Source: Nitrospirota bacterium (GTDB taxonomy: Bacteria > Nitrospirota > Thermodesulfovibrionia > Thermodesulfovibrionales > JdFR-85). From it: DNA of 64,000 bases. Of the stretch, positions 3,630 to 12,220 are shown piece by piece. Position 1 is the stretch's first letter. Each line of letters starts with the position of its first letter. The position numbers were made by a program, and so were the translations under genes. The notes below the pieces were generated by a model. It was not told where the DNA came from. It worked only from the letters and a program-made list of their open reading frames with translations, and made no database searches. The stretch covers positions 1 through 64,000 of the forward strand of contig JAYWMQ010000013.1 in the NCBI GenBank assembly GCA_035873375.1, read 5' to 3'.

Positions 3630-4511
3630 ATGCCGGCAAAGAATATACTGAAACTCGGACTTCCCAAGGGAAGCCTTCAGGAGGCAACACTGAAACTTTT
3701 CAGAAAGGCAGGCTATCATATCACCGTCTCACATCGCTCCTACTATCCTGCAATCGATGACCCGAAGATACAGCCAATGCTTATAAGGGCTCAGGAGATG
3801 GCAAGGTATGTGGACTACGGAATCCTCGATTGCGGCCTCACAGGATATGACTGGATACTTGAACAGAACGCTGATGTGAAAGAGATAGCCGAGCTTAAAT
3901 ATGCCAAGGAGGGCCTGAGACCCGTAAAATGGGTTATCGCCGTGCCTGCGGATTCAAAGATAAAGACAGTCGAAGACCTTAACGGCAAGAGGATAGCCAC
4001 TGAACTGGTTGCCTTCACCAAGCGCTACCTCAAATCCAGGAATATAAAGGCAACCGTGGATTTCTCCTGGGGCGCAACAGAGGTCAAACCCCCGCATCTT
4101 GCAGACGCCATAGTCGAGCTAACAGAAACAGGAACCTCCCTCAGGGCCAATAATCTCAGGGTGATAGAGACCATTCTGGTATCAAGCACGCGTTTTATCT
4201 CCAACAAAAAGGCATGGAAAGAGCCCTGGAAGAAGCAGAAGATGGAGAACCTGATTATGCTCCTTAGAGGGGCCCTCGAGGCCGCAGAGCGGGTAGGGCT
4301 GAAGATGAATCTCCCTGAAAAGTCCCTCAAAAAGATACTCTCTCTCCTGCCGGCCATGCACTCTCCCACTATCTCGGTACTTACTGCCAAAGACTGGTAT
4401 GATATTGACGTGGTGATAGAGGAAAGGCTTTTAAGGGACCTTATCCCCAAACTCAAAAGTGAGGGGGCCACAGGAATTGTGGAATATCAATTAAACAAGG
4501 TTATCCCCTGA
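3630..4511 (+). CDS. hisG: ATP phosphoribosyltransferase, long form (HisG)
   Basis: Catalyses the first step of histidine synthesis, joining ATP and PRPP to give phosphoribosyl-ATP; cytoplasmic hexamer. At 293 aa it is the long form. The N-terminal two-lobe catalytic part (about residues 1-215) has [15 protein letters not shown] and [14 protein letters not shown]. The PRPP-binding stretch is [16 protein letters not shown]-terminal domain of about 75 residues corresponds to the ACT-like histidine-feedback domain, so HisZ should not be needed. Start ATG is supported by AGGAAGGAG just upstream. No other his gene is in the window, so hisG stands alone here. Confidence 0.93.
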
Positions 4512-4535
4512 GCAGAGATCAGACAGTCAGCAGGG

Positions 4536-4722
4536 GATGTGAATTTTACCTTTACTTCCCTTTCAGAGTATGTAACAATGTAGTTAGACCAAAGTATCTG
4601 ATATTTTAGGAAGGTACCGAAGTCTATACACATTGGTTTAACCGGGGGTGCCATTTGGGGAGGGGTCTGGTTAGGTAGCACAATATCAATGCTATGACTG
4701 GTTGTTTGTAGTAAACGGGGGC
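4536..4722. repeat. 187-bp diverged direct repeat, copy 1
   Basis: Opens with GATGTGAATTTTACC and closes near GGTTGTTTGTAGT. Copy 2 starts 322 bp downstream in the same orientation. Both ends and a central block (GGTTTAACCGGGG) are strongly conserved while the middle has diverged with almost no length change. A minus-strand reading frame is open in both copies and shares the string REVKVKFTS. Origin unknown. Confidence 0.7.
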
Positions 4723-4857
4723 TTGCTACAAGCGGTTGAAGCTGTTTTCTTCTGTCATGTTGCTGAAAAACTCCTCAATATGTCACCCCCTAAAATAAAC
4801 CCGGGGGAGCCAGCCTTAACAGACTGATTTCAGAGGTAATTAATCAAAAACCACCAT

Positions 4858-5044
4858 GATGTGAATTTTACCTTTACTTCCCTTCCGGATAATGTAACAA
4901 TGTAGTCAGACGAAAACAAGGGGTGTTTTTCAAAAAACACCGAAGTCTCTCCAAGTGGTTTAACCGGGGTTGCCATTGGAGGAAGGGTCTGGTAGGTACA
5001 TATTACAAGCAAAGCCCTGCCTGGTTGTTTGCAGTCAAGGGGCT
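4858..5044. repeat. 187-bp diverged direct repeat, copy 2
   Basis: Second copy of the element at 4536-4722, same orientation and virtually the same length. It contains a local inverted pair (GGTGTTTTT / AAAAACACC, 4922-4944) absent from copy 1. Its minus-strand frame continues longer (4830-5135) but resembles no family I know. Confidence 0.7.
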
Positions 5045-5187: not shown

Positions 5188-5329
5188 GTATAACTATCAT
5201 TGAATAATTGGTCTATTTCTGTATATCATTACAAATATCATGATATACAGTTAGTTATTTATAAATAACCAGCAAAAAACTTGTCAAATATCATTTTAAT
5301 CGGGTAAACTTTGAAGATATACAGAAATT
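5188..5329 (+). repeat. 142-bp leader element, copy 1 (promoter and iterons)
   Basis: Same length and about nine in ten bases identical to 7177-7318; each copy lies directly upstream of a cassette gene (35 and 15 nt away). Contents: an 11-bp perfect inverted pair (CTGTATATCAT 5219-5229 with ATGATATACAG 5240-5250), a 16-bp perfect palindrome (GTTATTTATAAATAAC 5254-5269), a promoter-like TTGTCA (5281-5286) 18 nt from TAAACT (5305-5310), and a further GATATACAG at 5316-5324. The three TATACAG-type sites bracketing the promoter look like operator iterons. Could be a mobile promoter, a MITE or a relic of an attI region. Confidence 0.7.
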
Positions 5330-5364
5330 CTATACTAACTGGTTATAAATCTAAGGATGGATAA

Positions 5365-5826: not shown

Positions 5827-5953
5827 CAAAAAACATGCTCTTGAATGCTCAACCGCAGGACCCTTTTTGATTTTGTTTAGTTTGAGAAATGCAAATCATA
5901 TTGATTGCTTGCAACGCTATAAAGATTGAGCATCAGAGATATTCATGTTAAGT
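5821..5953 (+). repeat. Integron attC site A
   Basis: 5' core CTTTAAC (5821-5827) and 3' core GTTAAGT (5947-5953, exact GTTRRRY). The arms pair as ATGCTCAA with TTGAGCAT, then TTG-like/CA-GAG with single extra bases on the 5' side. The 3' arm runs through 5927-5953, so the following gene must start after it. Confidence 0.68.
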
Positions 5954-5955
5954 TT

Positions 5956-6411
5956 ATGAAAAACTTTAAAACACCAGAAATACTATATTACGAAACGGAC
6001 AACTCATGTGCATTATGTAGCACTAAAGGCACTAATTTGTTAACTGTTCACCATATTGATGAAAATAGAGTTAACAACACATACGACAATCTGATCGTTC
6101 TTTGTCATAATTGCCACTCGCCTTATCATGATCCAAATCACTCAGAACCAACAAAAGAAGAAATAGAGAATAGAAAGAGAAACTTAATCCATAAAACCAT
6201 TACAACTTTTGGCTTAAACGCAATGAAAATTGCGCATCGTAACAATTTTGGTGTTGTCGCATTTCCCTATATGCTCTACCATCTTTGTGAACTCGATTAC
6301 ATGAAAAAGGAAGAAGCACAAATGGGGTACGGCAAAATTGAAGATGCAACAGCAAGATTTTCTATCACTCCACATGGTAGTAATGTTTTAGAAAAATGGT
6401 TCGACGAATAA
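5956..6411 (+). CDS. HNH endonuclease (cassette gene)
   Basis: Predicted DNA nuclease of the HNH/McrA type, 151 aa from the ATG at 5956. A CALC pair near residue 20 is followed by VHHIDENRVNN (first His and Asn region) and LIVLCHNCH (second Cys pair and final His), giving CxxC...HH...N...CxxC-H as in the zinc-bound beta-beta-alpha-metal fold. The remaining C-terminal half (about 90 aa) is an alpha-helical region I cannot assign. A TTG at 5926 would extend the frame, but it lies inside the attC A arm, so 5956 is preferred. Restriction, homing or phage-defence roles are all possible. Confidence 0.8.
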   Translation: MKNFKTPEILYYETDNSCALCSTKGTNLLTVHHIDENRVNNTYDNLIVLCHNCHSPYHDPNHSEPTKEEIENRKRNLIHKTITTFGLNAMKIAHRNNFGVVAFPYMLYHLCELDYMKKEEAQMGYGKIEDATARFSITPHGSNVLEKWFDE

Positions 6412-6597: not shown

Positions 6598-7104
6598 ATG
6601 GCGAGATACAAAGAGTATGACTATTCGCAGGGGAAATTCATACCGATATATTTTGACAAGCAGATCATGCCTGGGACATTTGAGTATACCCTTCATTATT
6701 TAATCGACAACGAAATAGACCTTTCAGTTTTTGACCTGCGCTATCGGAACGATGAACCCGGAGCACCAGCATACGATCCTGCAATACTGTTGAAGATAAT
6801 ACTGTATGCATATTCACGCGGGATAACGTCAAGCAGGAAGATAGCGCAGTGCTGCCGGGAGAACGTCATATTCATGGCATTGTCAGCGGATACACAGCCA
6901 CATTTTACGACAATAGCGGACTTTATCTCGACACTGGATGAGGAGATCATCCGTCTTTTTCTGGAAGTGTTAATGGTCTGCGATGAGATGGAGTTGATAG
7001 GGGGGAAGATGTTTGCGGTAGACGGGTGCAAGATGCCCATCGGTCAGGTAGGTAACGTTATTGACTACGTTGACTTACTGCTTTTCCCTTGTGGGAATCG
7101 TTGA
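6598..7104 (+). pseudogene. Truncated IS1182-type transposase
   Basis: The first 150 or so residues match the N-terminal region of IS1182/IS5-group transposases (DUF772-like): SQGKFIPIYFDKQIMPGTFEYTLHYL, YDPAILLKIILYAYSRGI, SSRKIAQCCREN, then FAVDGCKMPI carrying the first catalytic Asp. Full-length relatives are about 400-500 aa; here the frame loses similarity after that Asp and stops at 168 aa, so the second Asp and Glu are missing. AGGAGGAAGGG precedes the ATG and TATAAT lies at 6542-6547. The likely left end (GAGGCTGTAGAAAAAGTC, about 6514-6531) abuts attC B. No right end was recognised. Non-functional remnant. Confidence 0.82.
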
Positions 7105-7176: not shown

Positions 7177-7318
7177 GTATAATTATCATTGAACAATTGG
7201 TCTGTTTCAGTATATCATTACAAATATCATGCTATACAGTTAGTTCATTATAAATAACCAGTAAAAAACTTGTCAAATATCATTTTAATCGGGTAAACTC
7301 AGGTGGTATACAGAAATT
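7177..7318 (+). repeat. 142-bp leader element, copy 2
   Basis: Second copy of the 5188-5329 element, identical in length. The promoter pair is kept exactly (TTGTCA 7270-7275, 18 nt, TAAACT 7294-7299). The three TATACAG-type sites are kept with one or two changes each, while the 16-bp palindrome is broken. It lies 15 nt before the HEPN gene. Confidence 0.7.
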
Positions 7319-7333
7319 GCACAATCATTTGTT

Positions 7334-7843
7334 ATGTGTAGATTATTTAAAAAGATGAGAGTCTTTAAAACGAGTGACGGATTTAAGCCAGATGATTTAT
7401 TAAAGTTTGCAATAGATCACCTGAGGTCAGCAAATTTGTTGTTTAACCGGAGTCCTATATGTTTTGATTCAGGAGGATATTTATCACACTTGGGACTGGA
7501 GTTGATTTTGAAATCGATTCTTCTCAGCAAAACAGGTGAGTTCCCGGCAATACATGATTTAAAAAGGTTATACAAAATAGCAAAAAAATCAGGATATAAG
7601 TTAGAAAAGGATGAAGAAGATATATTAAAGAAAATTAATCAGTTTTATTATCTGCGTTATGCAAATCCCCTGAGGCCTGTTGAAATAGGTGATGAGGATT
7701 GGCAGTTAATTGAAAATGCTGCAAATACGTTACTATCGTTCTTTCCAGAGAAAACACTAAAAGAATTATATGCGAGTGATTATAATGAAAAAGGTGGCAG
7801 AATACTGATGAAGAAGGAAAAGGAAATCGACAAAAACACATAA
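7334..7843 (+). CDS. HEPN domain protein (cassette gene)
   Basis: 169-aa all-helical protein resembling HEPN proteins: an N-terminal helix DDLLKFAIDHLRSANLLF, then GGYLSHLGLELILKSILL, then a PAIHDLKRLYK turn. HEPN proteins include RNases of toxin-antitoxin and abortive-infection systems. The catalytic R-x4-6-H motif is not clearly present (YLRYANP is the nearest), so it may be a non-catalytic or substrate-binding member. No nucleotidyltransferase partner is adjacent. ATG 7334 is chosen; ATG 7355 is an alternative, and neither has a strong ribosome site. The stop overlaps the 5' end of attC C. The upstream 142-bp leader is the likely promoter. Confidence 0.68.
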   Translation: MCRLFKKMRVFKTSDGFKPDDLLKFAIDHLRSANLLFNRSPICFDSGGYLSHLGLELILKSILLSKTGEFPAIHDLKRLYKIAKKSGYKLEKDEEDILKKINQFYYLRYANPLRPVEIGDEDWQLIENAANTLLSFFPEKTLKELYASDYNEKGGRILMKKEKEIDKNT

Positions 7844-7966
7844 CAACGACATGCACCTAATGCAGACCAGCGTTACTTTTTTTGTTGCAATAGTTTATGT
7901 TTTTCAAATTGTCTTTCACCTTGTTCATATTCTTCATGGTCTGCATAGGTGATGTAGGCGTTATAT
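7838..7966 (+). repeat. Integron attC site C
   Basis: Very clear attC. The 5' arm (7838-7872) and 3' arm (7933-7966) pair through ATAAC/GTTAT, ACAT/ATGT, ACCTA/TAGGT and TGCAGACCA/TGGTCTGCA, with single unpaired bases on the 5' arm. 3' core GTTATAT at 7960-7966; 129 bp in all. Confidence 0.85.
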
Positions 7967-8009
7967 TGCTCAAAATAGTACAACTTATCATCAAATGGTT
8001 TAAACCAAT

Positions 8010-11000
8010 ATGGAATTATCAAACTTAACAAAAAAAAGACGCGAGCATATTCGTTCGTGTCGTGATAATAACGATAATTCCCATGAAATAATTGCTGGCC
8101 TATATTCAGACCAATCCCATTTTATCTATGAGCTTTTACAAAATGCGGATGATGCAGGGGCATCAGAAGTCATCTTTAACTTAACTTCTGAGTCCCTTGA
8201 AGTAACTCACAATGGTACTAAATTATTCGATTCTAAAGATGTTGATTCGATAACAACCGTAGGATCATCACCGAAAAAAGACGATGTTAATTCAATTGGT
8301 ACTTTCGGAGTTGGATTTAAATCTGTTTTTGCAATAACTAAAACGCCAAGTATTCATTCTGGAAATTATCATTTTAGAATTGTAGATTTTATCGTTCCAG
8401 AAACAATAAAATCTTTAGACATTAAAGAACAATATACAGTCATATACCTCCCATTTGACCATCTTATTACATCACCCGAAGATGCTTACAAACAAATATC
8501 CAAACGATTACAAGCGTTAGAGTCTGAATCATTATTGTTTTTGAGGAACATTCAAGAGGTTCAGTGGAGTACGGAATCAGATAAGGGCCATTATTTGGCT
8601 GAAATCAAGGAAGATAAGGATAGCCTGATCTCTCAGGTTAATGAACAAGACAGCCTGAGAGATTATCTGATATTTAAAAAAATCATAGAAATAGACGGTG
8701 CCAAACTAAATATAGTAGTTGCTTATCCGTTAAATATTGATGATGGTGACACCGTCGTTCCAGTACATAATTCCAAATTATTTGTGTTTTTTCCTACAAA
8801 TGAAAGAACAGGGTTAAAGTTCTTAGTTCACGCGCCTTATAAAACCACTCCTAGCAGAGAGTCAATTCCTTTCGATGACAGTCAAAATCAGATTATTACA
8901 AATGAATTATCAATGCTGATAGCTGAGAGCATACAATCAATTAAAAATAACGGATTATTGGATGTTGGTTTCTTGACTTTGCTACCTATCGATTCAGAAA
9001 ATGAACATTCATTGTATAGTTCAGCATTCCAGAAAGTTAAAGACGCATTAACAACCAATCTACTATTACCAACTTCGGATAATGGGTATGCAAATGCAGG
9101 AAACACTTTATTAGCAAGAGAAAAAGAACTAACGACCCTATTGGGTAGTTCGGATTGTTCTGAATTATTTGAAAGAAAAACCTGGCTTAGTACGGCTATC
9201 ACGTATGACAAAACAAGAGAATTAAGGGATTATTTGACGGGGATATTGAATATTCCTGAAATTACTATGCAAAAATTCTGTACAGAAATAACTGAGGAGT
9301 TTATAAAAACAAAGCGGGACGAATGGGTTATAAACTTCTATTCAAATATAACAAAAAACAAAGCCTTATATAGAGTCGGAGGCAGCTATCAGAAAAAGGG
9401 GGTTCTACGAAAACGCCCAATTATTCGCTTGGAAGATGATTCTCATATCTGTCCAGAAGATGATTTTGGTGATTTGCAAGTATATCTACCGTCCAAGGGA
9501 ACGTCAAAGTTCAAAACTGTTAAGAGAGCTATTGTAGAGAGTGAAGAATCCATTGAGTTCTTGAAAAGTCTTGGACTCAAAGAGCCAAATAATATAGCTG
9601 AGATTAAAGAGTTCATTATCCCGAAATACCAAAGTAGCTATATTGGAAAGGATGAATATATAGATGACTTCGAGCGAGTACTAACAATTTGGATGCAGTC
9701 TGATGAGTACCGAAAAAAAGAGGTTGCGGATTTACTAAAGCAATCGCAATTTGTACGGTGCATAAATCAAAGCAAGTCAATCTTTTATCAAAAAGCCGAT
9801 GATGTGTATTTTTGCACGGATAAGTTATTAGCTTGGTATGAGGGTAATCTAGATGACAATATTTATTTCCTCGAGGTGGGGATTCAGTTAACAGAAAATA
9901 GCAGGAAGTTTATAGAAAGCCTAGGTGTTCGATATGATATAAAAATGTCTGGTATCAACGACATTAGGGTTAGTAATTATGGTTGGTACGAAAGAAGTGT
10001 TAATGGGTTTAATCCAGGCTTTGGTATACATGGGTTAGAATTTACCCTGAAAAGCATAACTGCTGAAAAGTCTCTATTCTTGTGGTCGGTATTGCTTAAA
10101 AATACCAATAAGCTGAAGGGTTATATAGAAACAACATCCAACCAAAATCACCCATATAATAAGGGTGAAGAGAAGACATCAAAGGCTATGGATGCGTTAA
10201 TTAAAAGTCCGTGGCTATATGACAAGGAAGGCAAATTAATATTTTTACCTATTGATCAAGTAGCGTTTGATGATCTGAGCGATGATTATCAAAAAGAAGA
10301 TAATAATATCGAAAGGCTCGTTAAAGCACTCGGATTTAAGCTGGATGAAATTGTAGAATTCGAAGAAAAAACTGGTAAAAAAGTTGTATCCATAGAAGAT
10401 TTTGAACTTCTTCGAAAAATCAAGAAAGATCCTAATGATGCTGAAGAAGAGAAGGATGAGGACGATAACTGGATACCAGAAACAGATCCTGATGATGCAA
10501 ACATCATTGAAGACGAATCCGATTTTAAAAGGCACATACAAGAAGATTTATCTGGCCAAGATGCAAAAGTAAATGCTGGTATTGATGATACAGATAATGA
10601 TAATGGTGAGAAAGAAAGGGCAAATGGTAGCAATTCTGACAAACCAAAAGATAGTAAAGCAATAGGTGCTTGGGGAGAATCTATCGCCAATAGATACTTA
10701 GTAAAAAAGTATTCAAAGAACGAAGTGGTTTGGCTAAATGAAAGCGGGAATGTCGGAAAGGGCTACGATTTTGTAATAAGAGAGAATGGTGAAGATATTG
10801 CCTACTATGAAGTCAAAAGCAAAACTGACAAGGCACCACAACTATTTCTAATATCTGGTACACAGTGGGGTTGGGCGAAAAACTTACATAACGCAAATAA
10901 GGGAGGCATGTATAAAATTTTGTTAATTTCCAATGCAGGAAAAAAAGAACCAAAAATCAGAGAAATAATAAACCCTGTTGAACTTTGGAATGCTGGGAAA

Positions 11001-11033
11001 TTATACGCAGACCCCGTTAATATTGAACTATAG
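8010..11033 (+). CDS. GHKL ATPase (sacsin-like) with C-terminal DUF3883/PD-(D/E)XK-like domain
   Basis: 1007-aa cassette protein. The N-terminus is a GHKL/histidine-kinase-like ATPase of the sacsin/NOV type: N-box ELLQNADDA at residues 41-49 (Glu41 and Asn45 as Mg-ATP ligands) and lid GTFGVGFKS at about 97-105. The middle 600 residues are unassigned. A strongly acidic linker lies near 810-860. The C-terminal 125 residues match the DUF3883/NO VEIN C-terminal type, with GESIANRYL, Asp920 in GYDFV and Glu934-x-Lys936 in YYEVKSK, the D...ExK spacing of PD-(D/E)XK nucleases. Relatives are frequent in phage-defence islands. It occupies a cassette of its own between attC C and D and is unusually large for a cassette. 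Nuclease activity and defence role are inferences. Confidence 0.82.
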   Translation: MELSNLTKKRREHIRSCRDNNDNSHEIIAGLYSDQSHFIYELLQNADDAGASEVIFNLTSESLEVTHNGTKLFDSKDVDSITTVGSSPKKDDVNSIGTFGVGFKSVFAITKTPSIHSGNYHFRIVDFIVPETIKSLDIKEQYTVIYLPFDHLITSPEDAYKQISKRLQALESESLLFLRNIQEVQWSTESDKGHYLAEIKEDKDSLISQVNEQDSLRDYLIFKKIIEIDGAKLNIVVAYPLNIDDGDTVVPVHNSKLFVFFPTNERTGLKFLVHAPYKTTPSRESIPFDDSQNQIITNELSMLIAESIQSIKNNGLLDVGFLTLLPIDSENEHSLYSSAFQKVKDALTTNLLLPTSDNGYANAGNTLLAREKELTTLLGSSDCSELFERKTWLSTAITYDKTRELRDYLTGILNIPEITMQKFCTEITEEFIKTKRDEWVINFYSNITKNKALYRVGGSYQKKGVLRKRPIIRLEDDSHICPEDDFGDLQVYLPSKGTSKFKTVKRAIVESEESIEFLKSLGLKEPNNIAEIKEFIIPKYQSSYIGKDEYIDDFERVLTIWMQSDEYRKKEVADLLKQSQFVRCINQSKSIFYQKADDVYFCTDKLLAWYEGNLDDNIYFLEVGIQLTENSRKFIESLGVRYDIKMSGINDIRVSNYGWYERSVNGFNPGFGIHGLEFTLKSITAEKSLFLWSVLLKNTNKLKGYIETTSNQNHPYNKGEEKTSKAMDALIKSPWLYDKEGKLIFLPIDQVAFDDLSDDYQKEDNNIERLVKALGFKLDEIVEFEEKTGKKVVSIEDFELLRKIKKDPNDAEEEKDEDDNWIPETDPDDANIIEDESDFKRHIQEDLSGQDAKVNAGIDDTDNDNGEKERANGSNSDKPKDSKAIGAWGESIANRYLVKKYSKNEVVWLNESGNVGKGYDFVIRENGEDIAYYEVKSKTDKAPQLFLISGTQWGWAKNLHNANKGGMYKILLISNAGKKEPKIREIINPVELWNAGKLYADPVNIEL

Positions 11034-11047
11034 CAGTTGAAAACGCA

Positions 11048-11159
11048 ATATAACAAGGTGCTACACTCGGAGTATCCACTGTTTGCTCTGCGCTCCGCGC
11101 CTTACAACCAGCGGATGGAACAGATGCCCTTTGGGCACTCCTCATCAGCGGCGTTAGAA
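11048..11159 (+). repeat. Integron attC site D
   Basis: 5' core ATATAAC (11048-11054), 3' core GTTAGAA (11153-11159). Arms pair in blocks TAAC/GTTA, GCT/AGC, GGAGT/ACTCC and CCA/TGG with unpaired bases. Pairing is weaker than in sites B, C and E. Confidence 0.6.
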
Positions 11160-11189
11160 GGCTGAACAAGAATAGAAAAGGAGGTGTAT

Positions 11190-11561
11190 ATGGGATTTCT
11201 CAGCAATTTATTTGGCGATGAAAATTTCGCAGGCCAGATTTCTGATAGGGGAGTTAAGTATTTATTAGCAAATTTAGATTCCGTCGATACTGAAGTCCTT
11301 AACTTTCTTGAACCCACTCATCATATTTGGCCAGAGCAACAGATGTTTATTCCTAACCTTATGGGTGAATTCAGAGACTCGAAAGTTGGGATTGTACACG
11401 GTCAAGGGGGAGGCCATGCATTCATACGCATGAATGCGCTCAAATCGATAGCTCAAGAGCATATCGGTGAAATTTCAAATTACTGTGAGTTAGTCAAGTT
11501 ATTTCGTGCTTCTGGTCTGGAGGTAAAACGAATTAAGTATTTCCGAGTTGAGGAACATTAA
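11190..11561 (+). CDS. Small cassette protein of unknown function (123 aa)
   Basis: Not recognised. The ATG at 11190 is preceded at 5 nt by AAAGGAGG, a strong ribosome site; a GTG 6 nt upstream overlaps that site and is rejected. The protein begins MGFLSNLFGDENFAG, has a conserved-looking VDTEVLNFLEPTHHIWPEQQ segment and a short glycine-rich GQGGGHAFIRM stretch. It carries no signal peptide, membrane segment or cysteine pair. It is single and complete between attC D and attC E, so it is probably a stand-alone function. Confidence 0.7.
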   Translation: MGFLSNLFGDENFAGQISDRGVKYLLANLDSVDTEVLNFLEPTHHIWPEQQMFIPNLMGEFRDSKVGIVHGQGGGHAFIRMNALKSIAQEHIGEISNYCELVKLFRASGLEVKRIKYFRVEEH

Positions 11562-11594: not shown

Positions 11595-11699
11595 TTCTAA
11601 CAAAGCAAATCAACATGGATGGACAAAAGCGTCGCAATTTTTGCAAAAAGACGCAAAAATTCCGCCACTTTCGTCCACCAGTTATTTGCAACGTTATGC
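11595..11699 (+). repeat. Integron attC site E
   Basis: Textbook attC of 105 bp. The 5' arm (TTCTAAC from 11595) pairs with the 3' arm ending GTTATGC (11693-11699) through TAAC/GTTA, GCAAAT/ATTTGC, AAC/GTT, TGG/CCA, TGGAC/GTCCA and AAAG/CTTT. Three single bases are left unpaired on one side. Confidence 0.88.
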
Positions 11700-11719: not shown

Positions 11720-12220
11720 ATGATTAAATTTCTACAAGCCTTAGTTGTAATTGGTTTTTCTTTTTTTATCTTCGCTTGTGGTGGTGGTGATGATGGCGGT
11801 GGCGGTGGTGGTACAACATTTAATAAAGTCTCTTTCCCTCTCACCGTCAAAGCGCAAATTGATGGTCGAAGCCAACTTATGTTAAGTGGAAGTTTGATTT
11901 GGTGGCACCACATTGACTGGGAACCTCCTGGCCTTTGGGGAGAAGAGCAACCAACTTTTTTAAACGAAGAAAAATGGTATCCAGTATGGCCTGAAGGAAT
12001 TCTTACTGATTGCGATTGTGATTCATCCAAGATAGACGCATTAGCAACACCATTGCGCGCTGATGCAACGATGATATCTCTTAATGTTATTGCAGGGAGG
12101 GGGGAAGTTACGATTGTTGAGCAACCTAATCAAAATAATGATTACACAGCCACAATTGAGTTCGACGATAATAATTCAGTGGGCCCAGACTGGTACGAAA
12201 TAATAATTTCTTATAACTAA
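11720..12220 (+). CDS. Cassette-encoded lipoprotein with glycine-rich linker
   Basis: 166-aa predicted lipoprotein of unknown function. A basic start (MIKF) and hydrophobic segment lead to a lipobox-like FIFAC with Cys20, followed by a GGGDDGGGGGG linker. The mature part is rich in Trp and acidic residues and looks like a beta-sandwich exposed outside the membrane; no family is recognised. AAGGAGGAAAC precedes the ATG at normal spacing. The GGTGGT-type repeat coding the linker (about 11778-11812) may be prone to slippage. It is the last cassette gene; a perfect 5' attC core (ACTTAAC, 12222-12228) follows, but I could not find a matching 3' core. Confidence 0.78.
   Translation: MIKFLQALVVIGFSFFIFACGGGDDGGGGGGTTFNKVSFPLTVKAQIDGRSQLMLSGSLIWWHHIDWEPPGLWGEEQPTFLNEEKWYPVWPEGILTDCDCDSSKIDALATPLRADATMISLNVIAGRGEVTIVEQPNQNNDYTATIEFDDNNSVGPDWYEIIISYN

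Follow-up and report, generated by a model that had tools for sequence, protein, structure and literature searches.

The gene at positions 8010 to 11033 of the window (the whole stretch of 64,000 nucleotides that was analysed) probably encodes a compact TmtA-like single-protein anti-phage system, carried as one movable integron cassette, in which an ATPase would gate a DUF3883 nuclease; we put the probability of this reading at about 0.6. Tiamat (TmtA) is known, and so are defence genes in integron cassettes; new, as far as the literature was searched, is a compact TmtA-like protein that is complete as one cassette and common to distant bins.

The open reading frame is intact, with an ATG start and one stop, and is translated into 1007 aa. 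Compared with a 76%-identical relative, its dN/dS is about 0.17; the frame is real, conserved and under purifying selection. Its parts are as follows.

8010..11033, forward strand: 1007-aa TmtA-like protein; a sacsin-type GHKL ATPase is followed by a long middle rich in alpha helix, then by the acidic linker and last by the nuclease-like NOV_C/DUF3883 domain.
8100..8387, forward strand: core of the sacsin/Hsp90-like ATP-binding domain, residues 31-126 (Pfam SACS, PDB sacsin SR1).
10470..10655, forward strand: acidic, fast-evolving linker, residues 821-882 (sequence; identity).
10656..11030, forward strand: NOV_C/DUF3883 PD-(D/E)XK-like domain, residues 883-1007 (Pfam, invariant residues, AF2 model).

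The motifs named in the initial annotation were found in place: the N-box ELLQNADDA (residues 41-49), the lid GTFGVGFKS (residues 97-105), the acidic linker (about residues 821-882) and the C-terminal D...ExK core (D920, E934-V-K936). The sacsin-like GHKL ATPase that had been proposed on these grounds is borne out by Pfam SACS (residues 31-126, E=7e-21, above the curated cut-off), by the NCBIfam sacsin N-terminal domain (4e-26) and by its PDB relatives, the sacsin SR1 structures 5v44-5v47 (5e-10). Residues E41, Q44, N45 and D48 of the N-box and G100, G102, F103 and K104 of the glycine-rich lid are invariant in 22/22 rows, and R283 is invariant in 22 relatives. The canonical adenine-contacting Asp of GHKL motif II (D-x-G) is absent from these rows: His67 is present in 20 of the 22 and Asn in two, and sacsin has Asn at the corresponding stretch. 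Nucleotide binding by the predicted ATPase domain is likely; the term ATP-gated is to be held loosely, since His67 replaces the canonical Asp.

At the other end of the protein, NOV_C/DUF3883 (Pfam) is matched at residues 889-985 (E=5e-10, above the curated cut-off), and E890, G918, D920, E934, K936, Q952 and W953 are invariant in all eight aligned relatives from a single clade, whose identity ranges from 76 to 33%. Both AF2 models were made from shallow alignments (8-9 rows): that of the full-length protein is poor (pLDDT 62.5; best fold matches sacsin SR1, PMS2, MutL and MORC3), and that of the C-terminal 140 residues (nine sequences) has a mean pLDDT of 72. In this C-terminal model the elements follow one another as alpha-beta-beta-beta-alpha-beta-beta; the first helix contains E890, two neighbouring strands carry D920 and E934/K936, and the second helix begins with Q952. 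The tail of the protein thus combines a conserved D...(D/E)xK with the alpha-beta-beta-beta-alpha-beta order of PD-(D/E)XK enzymes. Constraint is tighter here (dN/dS 0.05-0.14) than in the preceding linker; identity is 40-56% in the linker vs 78% in the domain after it. As read from its sequence, the DUF3883 tail has a complete PD-(D/E)XK motif set and is nuclease-like; the PD-(D/E)XK-type tail of the initial annotation is supported by the Pfam match, the invariant residues and the AF2 core, and the structure prediction suggested there as a check does give a nuclease-type core at the C-terminus.

Fold matches of the C-terminal model are individually weak (E 0.003-0.1, none passing E=0.001) and mostly to nucleases (splicing endonucleases, SPARDA nuclease subunit, MspJI, Hjc resolvase, D212, HincII, Kpn2I), but unrelated folds are also among them. 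The closest single matches, tRNA splicing endonucleases, would suit a defence protein whose DUF3883 domain binds DNA or RNA, or cuts RNA, and which protects through such binding or through damage to translation or RNA; in eukaryotes, moreover, sacsin-type proteins have a connection to HEPN RNases (PMC3710099). We consider such an RNA-directed module unlikely: the D...ExK...Q motif is that of DNA-cutting PD-(D/E)XK enzymes, other fold neighbours are DNases, and DUF3883 has been described as a new type of restriction endonuclease domain that is associated with SNF2 helicases (PMC3710099).

In PADLOC, only TmtA (Tiamat) models match the 1007-aa protein. PDLC03972 is matched by residues 5-701 (profile 9-756, E=1.3e-94) and, with the last 147 residues scanned alone, by residues 861-1007 (profile 1170-1301 of 1302, E=7e-21); the TmtA profiles are broad and match all 22 family members scanned, HNH-type ones included. 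Full-length coverage was not reached, positions 757-1169 of PDLC03972 lying outside the matched stretches; because of this uncovered part and the shorter protein, the term TmtA-like is used here, and not TmtA orthologue. Since both ends match TmtA profiles, the protein is a compact TmtA-like protein with no new domain combination, and on sequence grounds very probably a compact relative of Tiamat. The combination had been called unusual; this has to be dropped, as both ends are found together in the PADLOC TmtA models too. The architecture of ATPase and DUF3883 is not rare, and relatives in plasmid records are annotated as DUF3883 domain-containing proteins, one of them spanning 99% of the query. 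Tiamat (PADLOC PDLC03964-03972) is likewise a single gene with a GHKL/sacsin-type N-terminus and a DUF3883-type C-terminus; the protein described here differs in its length, which falls short of the best-matching profile (1302) by about 300 aa, with some 300-400 profile positions missing mid-protein, and in being carried as an integron cassette. Millman et al. 2022 reportedly validated Tiamat as an anti-phage system. It is listed as a defence system, its mechanism as unknown, in PMC12926258.

The principle of single-gene defence by a GHKL ATPase and a PD-(D/E)xK nuclease has a precedent, by analogy, in VcSduA (Shedu type I-D, paraMORC3), one gene in which the two are joined; it is proven anti-phage, and its protection was lost upon designed disruptions (PMC12137116). 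VcSduA has a DUF4263 nuclease and a MORC-type ATPase, whereas in the 1007-aa protein the nuclease-like domain is DUF3883 and the ATPase is of sacsin type. Membership of Shedu (SduA) was rejected: Pfam finds no DUF4263 in the protein, and PADLOC finds no SduA.

Plant NO VEIN and animal sacsin have the sacsin-type ATPase in common with the protein, and NO VEIN also the NOV_C C-terminus; unlike it, they are eukaryotic developmental or chaperone proteins without cassette mobility, and sacsin is far larger. With its N-terminal domain of sacsin/Hsp90 type, the protein could in principle act in stress or protein quality control in the manner of a chaperone (bacterial sacsin/HtpG-like) and be a passenger without a defence role among the many unrelated functions that cassettes carry. 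The fusion of the ATPase to a strongly constrained domain of nuclease type, the TmtA match at both ends and the defence-island neighbours of relatives all make this improbable.

The extent of the cassette was set by the following sites.

7961..11153, forward strand: the complete cassette (3193 bp), which runs from the TT in the R' site upstream of it to the G in its own R' site.
7838..7966, forward strand: attC-like site belonging to the HEPN cassette upstream, with the TmtA-like cassette joined to it (R'' ACATAAC / R' GTTATAT; the stem is long and imperfect).
11048..11159, forward strand: attC-like site of the TmtA-like cassette (R'' ATATAAC, R' GTTAGAA).
11595..11699, forward strand: attC-like site of the cassette that follows, which has ORF 11184-11561; the site is a near-perfect hairpin.

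All three attC-like sites came out of scans for stems. As single-stranded DNA, 7838-7966 folds with z=-2.9 (1/200 shuffles as stable) and 11595-11699 with z=-7.6; 11048-11159 is weaker than these two neighbouring attC-like sites (z=-1.7). A stricter scan for stems on both strands recovered 7838-7966 at score 17-18 and missed 11048-11159; it gave zero attC candidates in the 46 kb of the window that served as control. The boundaries are further defined by relatives. At the 5' side, CG|TTATATTGCTCAA is identical in L007 and L008, two loci with genes 63% and 68% identical to that of the window; upstream of TTATATTGCTCAA the three are unrelated, with three different genes and three attC stems. On the 3' side, the window cassette, L007 and a third locus, L006, have the R'' arm GCAATATAACAA in common. 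A shared boundary next to unrelated upstream DNA points to joints of integrase-mediated recombination, with 7961-11153 as the cassette. A single ORF ending in attC, complementary R''/R' and recombination-type boundaries characterise a real cassette, mobile with conserved ends, as judged from these sites; the single integron cassette of the initial annotation holds, by the attC-like sites and the 5' boundary common to L007 and L008. The contigs of L007 (5.3 kb, binned Bacteroidales) and L008 (3.1 kb, binned Mariprofundaceae) are short, so that their taxonomic binning is insecure. L006, from Candidatus Hatepunaea meridiana (76% identity), is part of a 43-kb contig whose other genes are ordinary chromosomal ones; the gene and the R'' end are present there without a recognisable 5' attC boundary; its 5' site seems to have decayed.

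Anti-phage integron cassettes are said to have been described by Kieffer et al. and Darracq et al.; defence genes are likewise carried there as cassettes, and the cassette described here is large (3.2 kb). No relevant link between Tiamat and integrons was found in the literature searched, outside which these two reports lie.

The neighbours of relatives place the family in a defence context. A NOV_C relative on a Sulfuricurvum plasmid adjoins Qat and a NERD protein, the NOV_C relative of L049 adjoins DruA and NurA, and that of L007 adjoins a ThsB-like TIR with a TPR-S sensor. In PADLOC at 1e-10, the 95 proteins that surround NOV_C-type homologues matched 243 families, with methyltransferases, Cas4, Cas1 and GajB foremost, and 88 control proteins of the same or similar genomes matched 19; both counts are inflated because many redundant models match one protein, and the control is only roughly matched. 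The contrast is large despite the inflated counts and the approximate control. Relatives thus occur in defence islands and not only in housekeeping contexts, and a single-gene cassette with defence context, as first suggested, is supported by the cassette ends, the TmtA matches and these neighbours. Viral contigs gave zero relatives when searched with the single 1007-aa protein or with the C-terminal alignment, and 16 more distant relatives with the clade alignment.

The same ATPase is joined in relatives to different tails, namely NOV_C, an HNH-like zinc domain (called from weak Pfam HNH_2 matches below cut-off) and an SF1 helicase. In a tree of residues 1-700, with deep branches only moderately supported, the tail types need three changes and NOV_C stands on two separate branches. 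The HNH-type relatives usually have a gene for about 1000-1200 aa directly upstream. Seven loci (L052, L058, L059, L064, L065, L069, L070) appear to be two-gene systems, with a gene for about 1050-1220 aa directly upstream of the protein with sacsin ATPase and HNH-like tail; the one such gene scanned, that of L058, encodes an SNF2-type helicase with HEPN_Swt1 that scores as DrmD/BrxH. A helicase directly beside an HNH-type relative, and DUF3883 domains in restriction-type operons (PMC3710099), are what might be expected of a modification-dependent (Type IV-like) restriction enzyme that recognises and cuts modified phage DNA on its own. We hold this for the TmtA-like protein to be a minor possibility: the Pfam scan finds no recognisable modified-base-binding domain, and no conserved helicase partner is seen beside the NOV_C clade. 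None was seen beside the TmtA-like cassette either.

For the preferred reading, a gated DUF3883 nuclease, the following course is proposed. The N-terminal ATPase would dimerise or change shape upon nucleotide binding; the middle region would sense an infection cue (phage protein, phage DNA or its replication intermediates); sensing would set the DUF3883 nuclease free, which would then cut either the DNA of the phage itself or, as an abortive response, all DNA in the cell. From gating and sensing to the DNA target and the anti-phage protection itself, these steps are inferred. In relatives the same type of ATPase is coupled to C-terminal modules of several kinds, which is in keeping with a shared sensor/gate whose effectors can be exchanged. 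A wider and more tentative proposal, which we think possible but rather doubtful, is that of a cassette-borne self-sufficient immune family with a shared sacsin/NO VEIN-type ATPase as sensor/gate, swappable tails (DUF3883, HNH-like, SF1 helicase) and integron spread between phyla, in which the His of motif II would mark an unclassical nucleotide or activation mode.

A compact 1007-aa relative with a nuclease-type tail would be easier to handle biochemically than the TmtA proteins of 1300-1800 aa, and a TmtA-like cassette would show that integrons can move a large immune protein whole, in one unit. Should the tail be gated by the ATPase, the family would connect immunity in bacteria with the kind of ATPase found in sacsin (an ataxia protein) and with the whole architecture of plant NO VEIN.

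The array in the window starts after hisG (3630-4511) and has an unknown ORF among its members. Further members and repeats are listed below.

5188..5346, forward strand: 159-nt attC-like repeat, copy 1 (87% identical to 7177-7335).
5926-6411: HNH protein ORF, array member.
6598-7104: IS1182-family transposase fragment, array member.
7177..7335, forward strand: 159-nt attC-like repeat, copy 2, immediately ahead of the HEPN cassette (repeat comparison).
7334..7843, forward strand: gene of the preceding cassette, HEPN-domain protein of 169 aa (Pfam HEPN 6e-9).
11184-11561: unknown ORF, next cassette after the TmtA-like gene.
11720-12220: lipoprotein-like ORF, array member.

The HNH ORF weakly resembles the HNH regions of ZorE and IscB and is a possible small nuclease defence cassette. 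The HEPN cassette lies directly upstream of the TmtA-like cassette; an adjacent MNT nucleotidyltransferase is absent. Between hisG and the array, a tandem duplication of about 322 nt (4536-5042) has three repeat blocks with equal spacing and is partly present in congeners. Rfam gave zero matches over 4-14.5 kb of the window.

No integron integrase above cut-off was found in the genome, which is 99% complete (best tyrosine recombinase 74 bits vs 265), and the array is therefore regarded as integrase-less. None was found in five congeners; integrases above cut-off are present in two genomes of two other genera of the same family, and IntI is present in the genome of L008. The 1007-aa protein is absent from the five congeners, some of them incomplete, which is consistent with acquisition of the TmtA-like gene. 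A clean empty site is not seen in the congeners because in three of them (G001, G004, G005) hisG is on one contig and the metallo-hydrolase on another, and the contig of a fourth (G003; hisG 99% identical) ends in the 159-nt repeat. Further copies of this repeat lie on other contigs of the same genome as the window. That at G000:C42:3658-3813 adjoins a CAP12/Pycsar-type TIR effector (L108, ORF 3838-4872; Pfam 2e-25); that at G000:C44:1737-1869 adjoins a TIR protein and a MazE/MazF pair (L109, ORFs 1200-1556, 1955-2215, 2203-2532). The copies of the repeat seem to mark dispersed integrase-less cassette islands rich in defence genes.
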